Of a DNA stretch of 45,581 bases, positions 4,725-44,758 are shown one piece after another. Made by a program: the position numbers and the translations under genes. Origin of the DNA: a virus; the IMG/VR virus record IMGVR_UViG_3300009788_000153, positions 1 through 45,581 of that record; one strand, written 5' to 3'. Numbering within the stretch: position 1 is the first letter of the stretch; each line of letters opens with the position of its first letter. The notes beneath the pieces are model-generated. The model had not been told where the DNA came from and did not search any database. It was given only the letters and a program-made list of their open reading frames with translations.

Positions 4725-5299
4725 GAGACGGCATAAACATTTTCATTTGTATTTTAATCATCATAGGATGTCTATTTCTTCTAGCCGGTTGCGGCTCAGG
4801 GGATAGTGTTCCCCCCCAGGGTAACGGATCTGGAGAGGATCCTCCTCCCATGGCTATCAACAGCATTGCTTTGACTTGCCTGGATGTGGACAATGACCGG
4901 ACCTGTGAGGCTCAGCTCGAGGCCTCCGGCATATTCAACTCCGGCGCTGTCAAGATCTCAGGCTCCCCCATGCCTGCAGACTATCTCAACTTAGAAATGA
5001 AAAGCACGCTGGAGGCCAGGGCCTCAGTATTCCTTTATTCAATGATATCCATCTCAGGATGCGGAGACCAGCCCCTGGCCTTTGACGCTGTGAACATAGA
5101 GCCTGGAGAGACCGTCTCATATTCGGAGGCCCTCTGGGGTTTCCGTTGTGGATCCCCTGACTTTAATGAGCTTGTCATGACCATCTATAATGCAGCGCAT
5201 TTCAACCCCTGGGATTATCCCTCTGCATATGTATATCCCAGAGACCAGGCTATTGCAAATGCCGTTGTCAGATGGCAGAATACAGGATCCGGAGGATGA
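4721..5299 (+). CDS. Predicted lipoprotein
   Basis: A 192-residue exported protein. A short polar N-terminus and a hydrophobic core (IFICILIIIGCLFLL) lead to the lipobox LAGC, so Cys24 is the predicted lipidated residue. The next residues, Gly-Ser, do not include the Asp that retains lipoproteins in the inner membrane of enterobacteria. A Gly/Pro/Ser linker follows, then a domain with four further cysteines that could form disulfides, fitting an extracytoplasmic location. Phage lipoproteins often block superinfection or inhibit receptors, but nothing here proves that. Its linker codons contain a 22-base sequence that recurs in the origin region (see 4805-4826). Confidence 0.8.
   Translation: MRDGINIFICILIIIGCLFLLAGCGSGDSVPPQGNGSGEDPPPMAINSIALTCLDVDNDRTCEAQLEASGIFNSGAVKISGSPMPADYLNLEMKSTLEARASVFLYSMISISGCGDQPLAFDAVNIEPGETVSYSEALWGFRCGSPDFNELVMTIYNAAHFNPWDYPSAYVYPRDQAIANAVVRWQNTGSGG
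4805..4826 (+). repeat. 22-bp exact copy of the origin iteron
   Basis: Twenty-two bases beginning AGTGTTCC and ending AGGGTAACG are identical to 44278-44299 inside the O-like gene, in the same reading frame (both encode SVPPQGN). A chance match this long is improbable in a 45-kb genome. It may be a second initiator site or a recombination trace. Confidence 0.75.
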
Positions 5300-5300
5300 T

Positions 5301-5501
5301 ATGGATCAGATAGATATACAAGAAATGAAAAATGTTATTGATGGACTACTGGATCTGGCTGTCCCTCACGCCAAAGCCATCAGGGCATATTTTAATGCAT
5401 TGATTGATCAGGGATTTAATGAGGATCAAGCTCTCAGGATCGTGATGAGACATGGAGTGATCCCTCCCTATGGCAACGCACCTGAGATAAAAGGAGGATG
5501 A
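5301..5501 (+). CDS. Small helical hypothetical protein
   Basis: A 66-residue acidic, helical protein. ATG 5301 is preferred over the longer frame from 5190 because a GGAGG element lies five bases upstream and the lipoprotein gene ends just before it. The C-terminal part (DEDQ-type helix followed by RHGVIPPYG) resembles the small helical folds common in phage accessory genes. No family is recognised. It overlaps the next gene by four bases. Confidence 0.6.
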   Translation: MDQIDIQEMKNVIDGLLDLAVPHAKAIRAYFNALIDQGFNEDQALRIVMRHGVIPPYGNAPEIKGG

Positions 5502-30643: not shown

Positions 30644-31046
30644 AACATCAGACCACGGCACTGAGGGACTCCTCTATGCCAGGGGAGTCCGCTTTTATAC
30701 CATGGAGCCTCCGGACCGCAACAACCAGAGGAATATATCATCAATCCCTGCCGGATCCTATGAAGTCCATAAGCGCTGGAGCCGAAAATATAAGATACAT
30801 TATTGGATCACAGAGATCCCTGGCCGGACGGTTTGCCTCATCCATCCGGGCAACGTGGGAGGAGACCGCTCTCGAGGCCTCAAGACCCATACATGGGGAT
30901 GCCTGCTCCTTGGGCTGGCCAGAGGCACTGTCTATGGCCAGAGGGCCATATTGAGCTCTAAACCGGCTATCAGGCGCTTTACAAGCCTGATGGCCATGGA
31001 AACCTTTAAACTACACATAATGGAGGCAGGGCATGGAATTAGTTAG
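30612..31046 (+). CDS. DUF5675-like protein (lysis region)
   Basis: A 144-residue protein. It matches the DUF5675 layout: TLLRTRTSDHGTEGLLYARG, EPPDRNNQRNISSIPAGSYEV and RTVCLIHPGNVGGD with GCLLLG, conserved in phage lysis regions. The conserved His and Cys could be catalytic, and the fold is probably beta. It may substitute for an endolysin, because no muramidase, amidase or peptidase of a known lysis family is present here. ATG 30612 is preferred to the longer frame since it begins at the conserved domain; it overlaps both neighbours. Confidence 0.7.
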   Translation: MLPQVTLLRTRTSDHGTEGLLYARGVRFYTMEPPDRNNQRNISSIPAGSYEVHKRWSRKYKIHYWITEIPGRTVCLIHPGNVGGDRSRGLKTHTWGCLLLGLARGTVYGQRAILSSKPAIRRFTSLMAMETFKLHIMEAGHGIS

Positions 31047-31617
31047 CACAGCCTTAGAAATAGCAGGAGGATTGCTCTCAGGAGGCCTGGGAGGCATTCT
31101 GGGAGGCTTTACGGGCATTATTGGCACGTTTGTAACCTCATACCAGAAAATCAAGAATAAAAAGCTTGACCAGGCCCATGAGGCTGAGATGAGAAAGGCT
31201 GACCAGGAGGATATGAGGCTTGAGTCCACGCTCCTGATGGCCAGGGACAAGGCAGCGGCAGATGCTGAGATAGAGGTTGCGGCCATTGACGCTTTCAAGG
31301 AGAGCCAGAAAGATATCATGGCCCCAGCCTTTGACAAGTCATATATGAACAAGATACATCCCTGGATAGCAGGGCCAATAGCTTTCCTGATGGCCCTTGT
31401 GGACATTATCAACAAGACTATCAGGCCGGCCATCACATATTATTTCATGTATCAAGGCCATCTGATCCTGGAAAAGGTCCTGAGCAGAGCGGATGTCCTG
31501 ACCATTGTTGAGGCTCAGGGAGTTGTCTCCATCATCCTGTATCTCATGGTTACTGCAGTAACATGGTGGCTGGGCCAGAGGCCAATGGACAAGGCCATGG
31601 AGAAAGTATTTGCATAA
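31033..31617 (+). CDS. Holin-like multi-pass membrane protein
   Basis: A 194-residue protein with a Gly-rich hydrophobic N-terminal segment (ISAGGLLSGGLGGIL-like, about 8-35), a charged central helix (about 45-95), and two further membrane segments (about 112-135 and 164-186). The motif KTIRPAITYYFM is seen in 3TM holins of gene-transfer-agent type. Position at the end of the late operon, just before a strong terminator, suits a holin. It overlaps the DUF5675-like gene by 14 bases. Confidence 0.7.
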   Translation: MELVSTALEIAGGLLSGGLGGILGGFTGIIGTFVTSYQKIKNKKLDQAHEAEMRKADQEDMRLESTLLMARDKAAADAEIEVAAIDAFKESQKDIMAPAFDKSYMNKIHPWIAGPIAFLMALVDIINKTIRPAITYYFMYQGHLILEKVLSRADVLTIVEAQGVVSIILYLMVTAVTWWLGQRPMDKAMEKVFA

Positions 31618-31658
31618 TAACGATCTCTGAAAAGCGTGGTGCTGATCCTCCGCGCTCA

Positions 31659-31694
31659 GGCCCTCCGGTTCCTCTCCTCCGGAGGGCCTTTTTT
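31659..31694 (+). terminator. Intrinsic terminator of the late operon
   Basis: GGCCCTCCGG (31659-31668) pairs perfectly with CCGGAGGGCC (31679-31688), followed by six T (31689-31694). The 10-bp GC-rich stem with a U tract will stop transcription after the lysis-type genes. It abuts the next promoter: the T tract runs directly into TTGACA. Confidence 0.9.
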
Positions 31695-31695
31695 G

Positions 31696-31723
31696 TTGAC
31701 ATATGTTTATAATTTGTTATAAT
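31696..31723 (+). promoter_or_regulatory. Consensus promoter of the non-coding RNA
   Basis: TTGACA (31696-31701), 16 bases, TATAAT (31718-31723): both hexamers are perfect. The start would be near 31730. It directly follows a terminator, showing an independent transcript. Confidence 0.85.
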
Positions 31724-31729
31724 AAAAGA

Positions 31730-31894
31730 AGCTAACAAGGTCAATGATGCTAGGCCTTCCCATTGCGGGTTATATCTGAGTGTTTTGATTAGGTAGCAAG
31801 AGAGGGTAGCGCTGCAGAGCTTTCCGAATTGCGCTAGGTTATAATCAATCATTTAGACAGCATCAAGGCCCCTGAGAAATCAGGGGCCTTTTTT
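31730..31894 (+). ncRNA. Candidate structured small RNA (about 165 nt)
   Basis: Between a consensus promoter and a strong terminator lie about 165 bases with no ORF. They fold in a plausible way: P1 pairs TGATGCT (31745-31751) with AGCATCA (31859-31865), P2 pairs TTGATTA (31785-31791) with TAATCAA (31842-31848), and P3 pairs TAGCGC (31807-31812) with GCGCTA (31831-31836) inside P2. A small CCC/GGG hairpin (31759-31769) fills the rest. GGCCTT (31753-31758) could instead pair with AAGGCC (31865-31870) and so open the terminator. I do not recognise a family. It could be a trans-acting RNA or an attenuated leader of the downstream gene. Confidence 0.7.
31865..31894 (+). terminator. Intrinsic terminator of the non-coding RNA
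   Basis: AAGGCCCCTGA (31865-31875), loop GAAA, TCAGGGGCCTT (31880-31890), then a run of T to 31894. The stem is 11 bp and perfect, with a GAAA loop. The run again leads into TTGACA, repeating the terminator-promoter junction seen 200 bases upstream. Confidence 0.9.
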
Positions 31895-31895
31895 G

Positions 31896-31924
31896 TTGAC
31901 ATCACTCTCCGTGAGTGTTAAAAT
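31896..31924 (+). promoter_or_regulatory. Promoter of the secreted-protein gene
   Basis: TTGACA (31896-31901), 17 bases, TAAAAT (31919-31924), one mismatch in the -10. The spacer contains the dyad CACTC-TCCGT-GAGTG, a possible operator. Transcription would start about 20 bases before the gene at 31951. Confidence 0.8.
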
Positions 31925-31950
31925 CAGGCATCTGATAAAAGGAGGTATGC

Positions 31951-32355
31951 ATGAAAAAGATTATGACAATGCTGTTGGTATTGATGGTTGTCATGCTGGC
32001 CATGTGGGCCGCGCTCCCGGCTTTTGCTCATCACGCGGACCCTATGGACAGTCCTCTGGCAAGCATCATGCAGGACATGGAATTCAGGGGGATAACCCCG
32101 GACGCTATGCCTTGCAGGGGCTCTGTGGACTGCAAATCCATAGAGTCCGGAAAAACCTTTATGGATCTTTTTGCAACTCTCATTCTGATGGACTCTATGA
32201 ACACAGACAGCGGATCCAGCTTGGCGATTATCGAGGTACGCGCCGGCGCTGATATCTCTGCTGGAATAACTGTGACCGATAATGCAAACGCTGCCGGCCA
32301 GGGACTCCTGCTCCGACATCTGGATGGTGGGCCGGCATTTGCCGGCATTGGTTGA
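31951..32355 (+). CDS. Secreted small protein (moron-like)
   Basis: A 134-residue protein with a strong signal peptide: MKK, a hydrophobic core of about 16 residues and the cleavage site PAFA-HH near residue 26. The mature part has two cysteines (CRG-x4-C) and a beta-rich C-terminus. Its own promoter, a perfect AAAGGAGG site and a following terminator make it an independently expressed unit, as morons are. It is likely to act in the periplasm or outside the cell, perhaps altering host susceptibility. No family recognised. Confidence 0.75.
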   Translation: MKKIMTMLLVLMVVMLAMWAALPAFAHHADPMDSPLASIMQDMEFRGITPDAMPCRGSVDCKSIESGKTFMDLFATLILMDSMNTDSGSSLAIIEVRAGADISAGITVTDNANAAGQGLLLRHLDGGPAFAGIG

Positions 32356-32391: not shown

Positions 32392-32424
32392 AAAAGGGCT
32401 CCGGATCTCTCCGGAGCCCTTTTT
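32392..32424. terminator. Bidirectional terminator between converging operons
   Basis: AAAAGGGCTCCGGA (32392-32405), loop TCTC, TCCGGAGCCCTTTT (32410-32423). A long perfect stem has A-rich and T-rich flanks on opposite sides, so it can stop transcripts on both strands. The secreted-protein gene converges here with the minus-strand operon ending at 32449. Confidence 0.92.
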
Positions 32425-32448: not shown

Positions 32449-33222
32449 TCAGGTTTTTGTGAGGGCCTCCCCCTCTCCAGGCTCAGGAGTTGGCTCTGGG
32501 CGCTCCTGAGCGACTCCTCCTGATGCCATGTTTGTCCGGATCCTGGCCATCTCCTCCTGATAGCCATAGATATGGAGTCCTGAGCTGTAGGCATACATTG
32601 GGCCATTCTTGAGGCCTGTCTCCTCAGCAACCAGCTGCTTGAGGAGCTCGATGCCTCCAAGATTCGTGGGGAGGCCTGCCCAGAGATCCCATGACCGGAA
32701 AAATACGGACACGCTCAGCACATCAGGAGGTATGACCTTGAAGTCAATGAGCCTCAGACAGGGAGGATCACATTTGCCATCATTGCCAATGCATGTGTCC
32801 AGATCATAGGGAGTGGCGATCTCAATGACGGCATGGTTTGTCAGGGGAGTCTCCTTGAGCATCTTCACTATCCGCTGATACTGTGTGTCTCCCTGGAGTG
32901 GCATGTTGGCATGGATCCTTGTGGCGTATTTGTAGGTCTCGTTTTCTGCCAGGTCTGGATCCATGATGTATCCGGCAAAGTAATCCTCAATATACTCCAT
33001 GGTTGTGGGAGCGGGAATCCCCAGGCCCGGAGGGATATGAGGGACAATATCCATACCAGGGAACTCAATGTAAATGCTGGCCCCTGGGTATTGCTGCCTG
33101 TGCTGTTCTCCCTCAAAGGATCCTCTCTGGATGGCCTGCTTGTAAGCGCCTCCGAAGATGTGCCATACCAGCTGGAACCATGCATCTGATATGGTCTTTG
33201 CATCAATGTGTATTGGCTTCAT
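32449..33222 (-). CDS. Thymidylate synthase family protein
   Basis: A 257-residue TS-fold protein. It has the catalytic Cys155 in CDPPCLRLIDFKV, Arg176 and Asp179 in FFRSWDLWAGLPTNLGG and His217 in YSSGLHIYGY, aligned with the TS active site. Asn187 (PTN) corresponds to the residue that selects dUMP; dCMP hydroxymethylases have Asp there. So it should act on dUMP, either methylating (TS) or hydroxymethylating. The C-terminal tail (RPEPTPEPGEGEAL) is unusual and replaces the normal TS end. The start is at 33222 with AAAGGAG seven bases upstream. It ends the modification operon. Confidence 0.83.
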   Translation of the reverse strand: MKPIHIDAKTISDAWFQLVWHIFGGAYKQAIQRGSFEGEQHRQQYPGASIYIEFPGMDIVPHIPPGLGIPAPTTMEYIEDYFAGYIMDPDLAENETYKYATRIHANMPLQGDTQYQRIVKMLKETPLTNHAVIEIATPYDLDTCIGNDGKCDPPCLRLIDFKVIPPDVLSVSVFFRSWDLWAGLPTNLGGIELLKQLVAEETGLKNGPMYAYSSGLHIYGYQEEMARIRTNMASGGVAQERPEPTPEPGEGEALTKT

Positions 33223-39141: not shown

Positions 39142-39165
39142 ATGATCCTCTCCTTTCAGGTTTCT

Positions 39166-39195
39166 ATTATATTCTATTCATAATATAATAGTCAA
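39166..39195 (-). promoter_or_regulatory. Promoter with embedded operator, modification operon
   Basis: On the minus strand: TTGACT (39195-39190), 18 bases, TATAAT (39171-39166). The dyad ATTCTATT-CAT-AATATAAT on the plus strand (39171-39189) has one mismatch between arms and the same centre as at 2974 and 44736. It lies inside the end of no gene and only three bases from the HD gene's stop. Confidence 0.8.
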
Positions 39196-41506: not shown

Positions 41507-41712
41507 TCTCCCTTGATGAGTTTAATGATCCATTTGAAAGTGAACCAGACAGTGATGATCACATTCAGGGGCCAGATCATAGCCAAGACTAGCCTTTCCC
41601 GGATCGATGGATGATGCCAGCGCTGAGCGTGCAGCTCACAGAAACTGGCAATGGCTCCTGATAGCCAGATAATGAAGATCAGCATATACAAAACAACCGT
41701 TATCTCTTTCAT
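41503..41712 (-). CDS. Small two-span membrane protein
   Basis: A 69-residue protein with two membrane segments (VLYMLIFIIWLSGAIASF and LAMIWPLNVIITVWFTF) joined by a basic loop, ending in a Lys-rich tail. Overlaps both neighbours. It could act as an inhibitor or membrane anchor; unknown. Confidence 0.6.
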   Translation of the reverse strand: MKEITVVLYMLIFIIWLSGAIASFCELHAQRWHHPSIRERLVLAMIWPLNVIITVWFTFKWIIKLIKGE

Positions 41713-42893
41713 GACATCCTCCTAACTCCATCTAATTTCATGGGCATGACAACTGCCTCATAAGTTTCATTGCCAAGATCCACTTTGCTCTCATTGTCCA
41801 GAGTCTCTGTGAGATGCATTGGGCTCAGCTGATCTGTCATGCCCAGGCTGACAATTGAGCTCTTGCACTTGAGGAGGGCCTCATGGAGATAGTGTATGTT
41901 CATGCCAAATTCAAGCTCAGGCCCATCAAAGCTCTCAACTTTGAAATCCGTCTCAGCTGAGTAATCTCCTTGCAGAGTTGCAGACAAGGAAAAGCCGAGA
42001 TGGCAAGCAAGGATCTTTGTGCCATAAGATTTCCGCTCAATTGGGATCGCTTTGAGTTTTTCAATGGCCCTGATCATGTCAGCCTTTCTGAATACTACAA
42101 ATGACTCACATTTCTTTGGTATAACCTGATCGTATTTTGGATAAGTACCATCTACCAGTCTGGAGATGAGCATTGTAGTGCCACATTTCAGCAGAGCATG
42201 GGAATCCGTGAAAGCAATCTCTGGCTCCTTATCGCAAATCCTGACTATTTGCATGAGCGAAGTCAGCCAGCGCCTTGGCGCAATGAAATTGCGCCTCTCA
42301 GGCAATGAGGTTGATGTTTCCATCTTCTTTTTAAGCAGAGCCATCCTGTGGCCATCAGTGCCAACCAGAATCAGGCCATCATCAGTAAAAATGAAAGGCA
42401 CGCTGTTGAGAGTATATCTGGTATCGCTATGCCCAGAGGCATAAAATACCCTGTTTATCATCTCTCTGAGTTCCTTGCCACCTAAACTGAATGAGGCCAT
42501 CAATTTGCCAATTTTGGGCTCCTTGAAAAAGCCGGCATCATCAGGAGTGCTGTGGAGCAGGTAGCTGCAGCCATCAGAGAACACTTTGAGAGAGACTTTC
42601 GTGTCCTCCTCTATTGTTGATAGAGTGACAGGCCCTCTGGCCTCCCCAATGATCCTGAGCAGCGTCTGGCAGTCAACAATGACCTCTCCTCTCCGGCAGT
42701 CAGTTGCTTGCACAAGAGCTTTGAAATAGTTATCTCCATCATATGCCTCAATTGACATGAGACAGCCTGCATGATCCCCAGACACGGACAATTTCACAAG
42801 TTGGCACATTGGGAGAGATGGTTTCTTTTCCCTTGCCTGAAAAGCCTTGTGCAACGTCTTATGAAAAACATCTCTTTCCACTCTTGCCATCAT
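41709..42893 (-). CDS. Sliding clamp homologue (DnaN-like)
   Basis: A 394-residue beta-clamp protein. Clamp signatures: TRYTLNSVPFIF, LILVGTDGHRMALL, LISRLVDGTYPKYDQVIP and the C-terminal YEAVVMPMKL. It would form a dimeric ring on DNA and give processivity to a polymerase. No polymerase or clamp loader gene is found, so it must work with host or another phage factor. AGGAGG precedes the start. The N-terminus is diverged from bacterial clamps. Confidence 0.85.
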   Translation of the reverse strand: MMARVERDVFHKTLHKAFQAREKKPSLPMCQLVKLSVSGDHAGCLMSIEAYDGDNYFKALVQATDCRRGEVIVDCQTLLRIIGEARGPVTLSTIEEDTKVSLKVFSDGCSYLLHSTPDDAGFFKEPKIGKLMASFSLGGKELREMINRVFYASGHSDTRYTLNSVPFIFTDDGLILVGTDGHRMALLKKKMETSTSLPERRNFIAPRRWLTSLMQIVRICDKEPEIAFTDSHALLKCGTTMLISRLVDGTYPKYDQVIPKKCESFVVFRKADMIRAIEKLKAIPIERKSYGTKILACHLGFSLSATLQGDYSAETDFKVESFDGPELEFGMNIHYLHEALLKCKSSIVSLGMTDQLSPMHLTETLDNESKVDLGNETYEAVVMPMKLDGVRRMS

Positions 42894-43917: not shown

Positions 43918-44370
43918 ATGAAGATAACCACGCGAGAGCAGTTTTTATATAGAAACGCGATCATTGATGATGTCCTTGCAAAGTATAATTTCCCATCCAG
44001 ACAAATCCGCGTCCTCCTCCATATAATGAGAAAAACATTGGGTTTCAATCAGACTCATTTTTATGCCGCTGTCAGGGATATCTCCAGGGCCACTGGCCTC
44101 CAGATCTCTCACACTCATAAAACAATTAAGGCGCTGGAGGCAAAAAATATTATTGCCACAAGGCCAACAACAAGAAAGACTCATATTGAGCTCAATGTGG
44201 ATTATATGAGCTGGAGGCTCAAGGAGCCAGACACATTATTTACGGGGAACGGAGTGTTCCCCCCGGAGGGAACGCCGAGTGTTCCCCCCCAGGGTAACGC
44301 TTTTTCTGACAAAGAAAGGCGCGAAGGACTTGCAAGAGTTAGGAAGTTGATAAAATCATTGCCCTCATAA
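43918..44370 (+). CDS. Replication initiator, lambda O-like
   Basis: A 150-residue protein with the O-type winged helix (QIRVLLHIMRKTLGFNQTHF, ISRATGLQISHTHKTIKALE, about 29-80). The C-terminus is short, so it keeps the origin-binding domain but lacks most of the part with which lambda O recruits helicase. Repeats in its coding sequence at 44244-44299 look like its own binding sites. TATAAT lies five bases upstream of ATG 43918. No helicase loader or primase gene was found nearby. Confidence 0.8.
   Translation: MKITTREQFLYRNAIIDDVLAKYNFPSRQIRVLLHIMRKTLGFNQTHFYAAVRDISRATGLQISHTHKTIKALEAKNIIATRPTTRKTHIELNVDYMSWRLKEPDTLFTGNGVFPPEGTPSVPPQGNAFSDKERREGLARVRKLIKSLPS
44244..44299. other. Candidate replication origin (iterons inside O-like gene)
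   Basis: GGGGAAC-GGAGT-GTTCCCC (44244-44262) is a perfect dyad. From 44253 two 22-base units starting AGTGTTCC and ending AACG (44253-44274, 44278-44299) repeat 25 bases apart; inside the first, GTTCCC and GGGAAC form another dyad. Lambda keeps its origin iterons in O at a similar relative place. AT-rich sequence lies downstream (44371-44470). Confidence 0.7.
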
Positions 44371-44703: not shown

Positions 44704-44729
44704 CAGTTGGATCCTCCTTTCTTGTTTCT

Positions 44730-44758
44730 ATTCTATTCTATTCATAATAGAAAGTCAA
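44730..44758 (-). promoter_or_regulatory. Autoregulated promoter of the RHH gene
   Basis: On the minus strand: TTGACT (44758-44753), 17 bases, TAGAAT (44735-44730). The 17-base spacer is exactly the perfect dyad TTCTATTATGAATAGAA. Binding there would block the polymerase completely, so the gene probably represses itself. Confidence 0.85.

Follow-up and report, generated by a model that had tools for sequence, protein, structure and literature searches.

The stretch of DNA analysed here (hereafter the window) is a virus record of 45,581 bases from a metagenome, IMGVR_UViG_3300009788_000153, in which a late block of + strand genes extends to 31617 and the genes from 32449 onwards form a block on the - strand. 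Between them, at the point of convergence of the late operon and the early genes, lies a block of ~0.8 kb built as two insulated cassettes in the order T0-P1-RNA-T1-P2-secreted protein-T2. The RNA unit comes first, and is insulated by T0 from the late operon and by T1 from the secreted-protein cassette that follows. The features of this block are:

31658..31690, + strand: T0 terminator, which closes the late operon on this strand (11-bp stem, 10-nt loop, T6)
31684..31702, + strand: left copy of GGGCCTTTTTTGTTGACAT, an exact 19-bp direct repeat in which a terminator tail is fused to a -35 box
31696..31723, + strand: P1, a sigma-70-type promoter (TTGACA-16-TATAAT, 12/12, TG extended -10)
~31730..~31892, + strand: predicted non-coding transcript of ~163 nt, its ends inferred from promoter and terminator
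31739..31870, + strand: predicted closing stem, GGUC/GGCC (31739-31742 with 31867-31870) plus UGAUGCU/AGCAUCA
31744..31779, + strand: ORF of 11 codons (MMLGLPIAGYI), probably due to chance and preceded by a weak AAGG
31775..31857, + strand: predicted inner nested helices, UCUGAGUG/CAUUUAGA and UUGAUUA/UAAUCAA
31865..31890, + strand: T1 intrinsic terminator (11 perfect pairs, GAAA loop, T6 tail)
31884..31902, + strand: right copy of GGGCCTTTTTTGTTGACAT
31896..31924, + strand: P2, promoter of the second cassette (TTGACA-17-TAAAAT, 11/12)
31951..32355, + strand: second cassette, an orphan 134-aa protein with a signal-peptide-like N-terminus (judged by eye)
32393..32422, + strand: T2, a terminator of 13 bp, detected on both strands and facing the convergent early genes

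An earlier note on this DNA had called the neighbouring genes lysis-type, a label that gained no support: one is a DUF5675 gene and the other belongs to phrog_6637, of unknown function. The 134-aa ORF (31951-32355) is preceded by an AAGGAGG site, and its product matched no family with confidence and no toxin family. Facing this second cassette, the - strand protein at 32449-33219 partly matches thymidylate synthase (Pfam E 4e-12).

The core of the earlier description, a consensus promoter followed by a perfect GAAA-loop terminator, was borne out, with P1 (31696-31723) scoring 12/12 with a 16-bp spacer and an extended -10, and T1 (31865-31890) having 11 perfect pairs and a T6 tail. As a chance background we used dinucleotide shuffles of the whole window (15 shuffled sequences, giving 30 strand scans) and defined a unit as a promoter of at least 11/12 followed at 60-320 bases by a terminator of T1 grade. 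Promoters scoring 12/12 occurred 0.017 times per strand in the shuffled windows, those of at least 11/12 0.25 times, and T1-grade terminators 0.03 times; no unit of such quality appeared in the 30 strand scans of shuffled sequence. The real window holds exactly one unit by this definition, the P1-T1 pair. The predicted transcript and the window are close in GC content, at 0.46 and 0.47.

The sequence between P1 and T1 has no credible coding content. No + strand ORF that starts inside the predicted transcript exceeds 11 codons, and no tRNA or tmRNA was found. On the - strand, a 100-aa ORF (31550-31852) crosses the T0 region and runs antisense into the gene at 31033; it has no Shine-Dalgarno sequence. 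The sequence statistics give good support to a non-coding transcription unit that is independent and terminated and has a moron-like setting; with such a promoter and terminator, a non-coding RNA of ~160 bases is very probably made.

The claim that this is a new structured RNA with its own promoter and terminator fared unevenly: the independent, terminated, non-coding unit stands, but the predicted stability of the RNA body does not exceed that of shuffles. Folding of the whole predicted transcript gave a z-score of about -3 against shuffles. This value is due to the terminator, because the 133-nt body without it had a z-score of -0.6, and 248 of 1000 shuffles folded at least as well. The three nested helices described earlier do exist (UGAUGCU/AGCAUCA, UCUGAGUG/CAUUUAGA and UUGAUUA/UAAUCAA) within a body whose stability stays at shuffle level. 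Pair probabilities in the 8-bp and 7-bp inner nested helices are mostly 0.9-1.0, and a stack of nested 8+7-bp helices was present in 22 of 1000 shuffles and in one of 100 window segments. These helices are mildly unusual, a mild excess over chance in a post hoc comparison, the helices having been seen first. Few single-stranded stretches that could act as a seed are predicted in the RNA.

The gene at 31951 is immediately preceded, on its own strand, by a structured leader and then a terminator. The unit might therefore act in cis, with transcription from P1 attenuated at T1 and read-through adding to expression of the secreted 134-aa protein. The lower part of the closing stem competes with the base of T1, the GGUC/GGCC pairs overlapping the T1 stem base, so that two mutually exclusive folds can be drawn, and the weak 11-codon ORF sits at the 5' end. 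During transcription of T1 the closing stem, GGUC/GGCC plus UGAUGCU/AGCAUCA, is predicted to form at -41 kcal/mol, and the finished terminator then displaces it to give a fold at about -57 kcal/mol. Because the T1 fold is favoured by about 16 kcal/mol relative to a fold in which the 3' arm of T1 is blocked, there is no convincing antiterminator, and these modelled energies make a weak case for attenuation by an alternative fold. The gene at 31951 moreover has its own near-consensus promoter, P2, just after T1; the 11-codon ORF carries no run of regulatory codons; and no riboswitch or leader family exceeded the Rfam threshold. We regard a cis-acting leader as unlikely.

Comparison with Rfam agreed with the earlier impression that no known RNA is apparent, as no family scored above threshold. 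The T1 terminator alone matches 40 Rfam families, including dozens of unrelated sRNA families, and the near-matches of the whole RNA are due to this terminator, since they vanish on its removal: at a relaxed threshold the terminator-free sequence gave a sole weak match (E=1.1). The near-match that bears on family membership is STnc100 (RF02076; E=0.0038), itself a prophage-encoded sRNA (PMC13192938), which raises the question of whether the RNA belongs to a known family that the Rfam models just missed. The alignment runs end to end but lies below threshold, its 23.3 bits being half of the gathering score of 47; most paired positions of the model are skipped or deleted, the matched letters are those of the terminator and of the A/T-rich 5' region, and the match is lost once the terminator is removed. 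Membership of an STnc100-type family is largely refuted, and that of any other known family narrowly missed in this way is most improbable. 6S RNA (RF00013) did not appear among the matches, even with E allowed to reach 10.

A type III toxin-antitoxin locus consists of an RNA antitoxin, a terminator and a toxin gene, with an RNA antitoxin made of tandem repeats. The window shares with it the succession of promoter, RNA, terminator and gene. It differs in that its RNA has no tandem repeats (none at 31600-32000), and in that the gene at 31951 has its own promoter, an export-signal-like N-terminus and no toxin family match; we rejected this candidate.

The terminase shares at most about 32% identity with the best listed records of deposited phages, from which the phage is remote. 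About 40 relatives at 42-56% terminase identity are present in IMG/VR, together with one fragment (L015) whose terminase is identical and which ends before the RNA region. In four relatives identified by terminase or tail homology and readable at their late end (L059, L074, L069 and L070), the late and early genes converge directly, and none of these four, few and moderately distant as they are, carries a promoter-terminator unit there. Because of this absence the two-cassette block behaves as accessory DNA, and as far as can be seen from these sequences the 0.8-kb block would be accessory in this genome. Relatives sought through the gene at 31033 and the secreted-protein gene yielded none of use, and two further contigs (L002 and L003) were rejected as relatives because they are unrelated and share a short chance match.

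Searches for the RNA itself gave no homologue. Only chance matches of terminator or promoter size were found by blastn in phages and plasmids; three exact patterns drawn from three parts of the RNA found no copy in IMG/VR; and the RNA was absent from 21 related records or genomes and from the records searched among the terminase relatives (about 50 loci). A sample of Zixibacteria genomes, a host phylum guessed from prophage relatives, gave zero matches, and 393 genomes of Spirochaetota, likewise a guess, gave four matches of 24-34 bases, about the chance number at this cut-off. A diverged homologue would escape these searches, which do not prove absence.

The 19-bp repeat GGGCCTTTTTTGTTGACAT occurs exactly twice in the region. 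Its copies bracket the RNA unit exactly 200 bp apart, and one period holds P1, the RNA and T1. Recombination between the two copies would drop the RNA unit and leave T0-P2-gene, and the reverse event could have inserted it. Elsewhere in IMG/VR, GGGCCTTTTTTGTTGACAT was seen once, at 6200-6290 of L077 (IMGVR_UViG_3300021400_000141), an unrelated large phage contig of 419 kb, at a junction after a tRNA cluster. We also scanned the relatives together with the window (635 kb, about 58 loci) for promoters lying no more than 28 bases after a terminator, and found eight such junctions, two of them in the window. One relative, L024 (IMGVR_UViG_3300009509_000039), has three in tandem at 5023-5340, directly after its terminase. 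Between them lie two mini-units of ~60 nt, each a promoter-terminator pair without an ORF, and a 91-aa ORF follows downstream. One mini-unit has a 12/12 promoter, and each has a terminator tail beside a TTGACA box. The sequences of these mini-units are unrelated to the RNA of the window.

These junctions suggest that the P1-T1 unit might be a relay without an ORF, or a decayed moron, whose working parts are the terminator-promoter junctions separating cassettes and whose RNA is a functionless by-product. We keep a relay without RNA function as the main rival because of the junction findings: the exact repeat at 200 bp would allow the unit to be gained or lost by recombination with T0-P2-gene intact, and L024 carries two tandem ORF-less mini-units after its terminase. 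Consistent with it are also the chance-level structure of the RNA body and the lack of any conservation found for the RNA. Against it, a perfect extended promoter and a perfect terminator would be costly to keep if useless, nested 8+7-bp helices of this kind would be somewhat rare by chance, and no remnant of an ORF is recognisable. On balance we think this explanation rather unlikely.

Other repeats lie elsewhere in the window. An A/T-rich element of ~39 bp (TTTCTATTATATT..TATTCATAATATAA) is present in three copies, at 2958-2996, 39150-39188 and 44714-44752. Every copy overlaps a predicted promoter, the one at 2963 being perfect, and the element resembles a common operator for a phage regulator. 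Repeats of 22 bp (AGTGTTCCCCCC..GGGTAACG) occur at 44253-44299 and 4805-4826. A lambda-O-like replication initiator gene (43918-44370) contains two of these repeats in its C-terminal part; by analogy with lambda O, they are possible origin iterons. The window also encodes, at 41709-42893, a DNA polymerase III beta clamp in which all three Pfam domains were detected.

We consider that the RNA unit has a somewhat better than even chance of being an accessory small-RNA gene of the moron type. The parts of this reading visible in the DNA are the promoter, the terminator, the lack of a credible ORF, the insulation and the 19-bp repeat borders. It is supported by the tandem of a 12/12 P1 and a strong T1, a combination that shuffled windows never produced, by the position in an insulated block between the end of the late operon and the converging early genes, by the absence of such a unit at this junction in the four relatives, and by the similar GC content of transcript and window. 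Against it weigh the lack of a homologue in the collections searched, the chance-level folding of the body, the scarcity of predicted seed-like single strands and the chance-level pairing with phage translation starts. Transcription by host RNA polymerase would run from P1 (31696-31723) to T1 (31865-31890), releasing an RNA of ~163 nt with a rod-like 5' body and a 3' GC-rich terminator stem with a U-tail. By analogy with known phage sRNAs, we infer that this RNA is made, is stable and may act in trans, its targets being RNAs of the host or the phage, or a protein; regulation of host or phage messages in this way is plausible. The best pairing of the RNA with the phage's own translation starts was within the range of shuffled bodies, which makes host targets likelier than phage ones, and the longest exact complement elsewhere in the phage sequence was only 11 nt.

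Separately expressed sRNA loci of phages and prophages are established, among them PreS, VpdS, StxS and AgvB (review PMC12197685) and the Pas sRNAs and STnc100 (PMC13192938), and Salmonella prophages encode ncRNAs (PMC7067206). Like the trans-acting sRNAs of this kind (lambda PreS, VP882 VpdS, StxS, AgvB, PasA-D and STnc100), the predicted transcript forms a short non-coding unit in a phage genome, terminated at its end by an intrinsic terminator with a U-tail, and has an accessory distribution; unlike them, it showed no sequence or structural relationship to them. With the moron cassettes of temperate phages it shares its own host-type (sigma-70-type) promoter and terminator, insertion at a module boundary and absence at the same place in relatives (the four moderately distant ones above), but it encodes no protein. 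Among the window proteins examined, none was recognised as an integrase or as part of a lysogeny module. Taken as a whole, the unit appears to be an element of a known general kind, a phage sRNA or an ORF-less moron, without known relatives.

There is a slim chance of something broader, namely that the RNA is the first representative seen of a new family of phage sRNAs and that the phages of this group use chained relays of terminator and promoter, each giving off a short non-coding RNA, with the relay as the mobile unit, as the 19-bp repeats here and the two tandem ORF-less units in L024 might indicate. Most of the known phage sRNAs come from a small number of enterobacterial phages. An sRNA candidate with clean boundaries in an uncultured phage, carried on a repeat-bordered cassette of 200 bp, would show how non-coding morons are gained.
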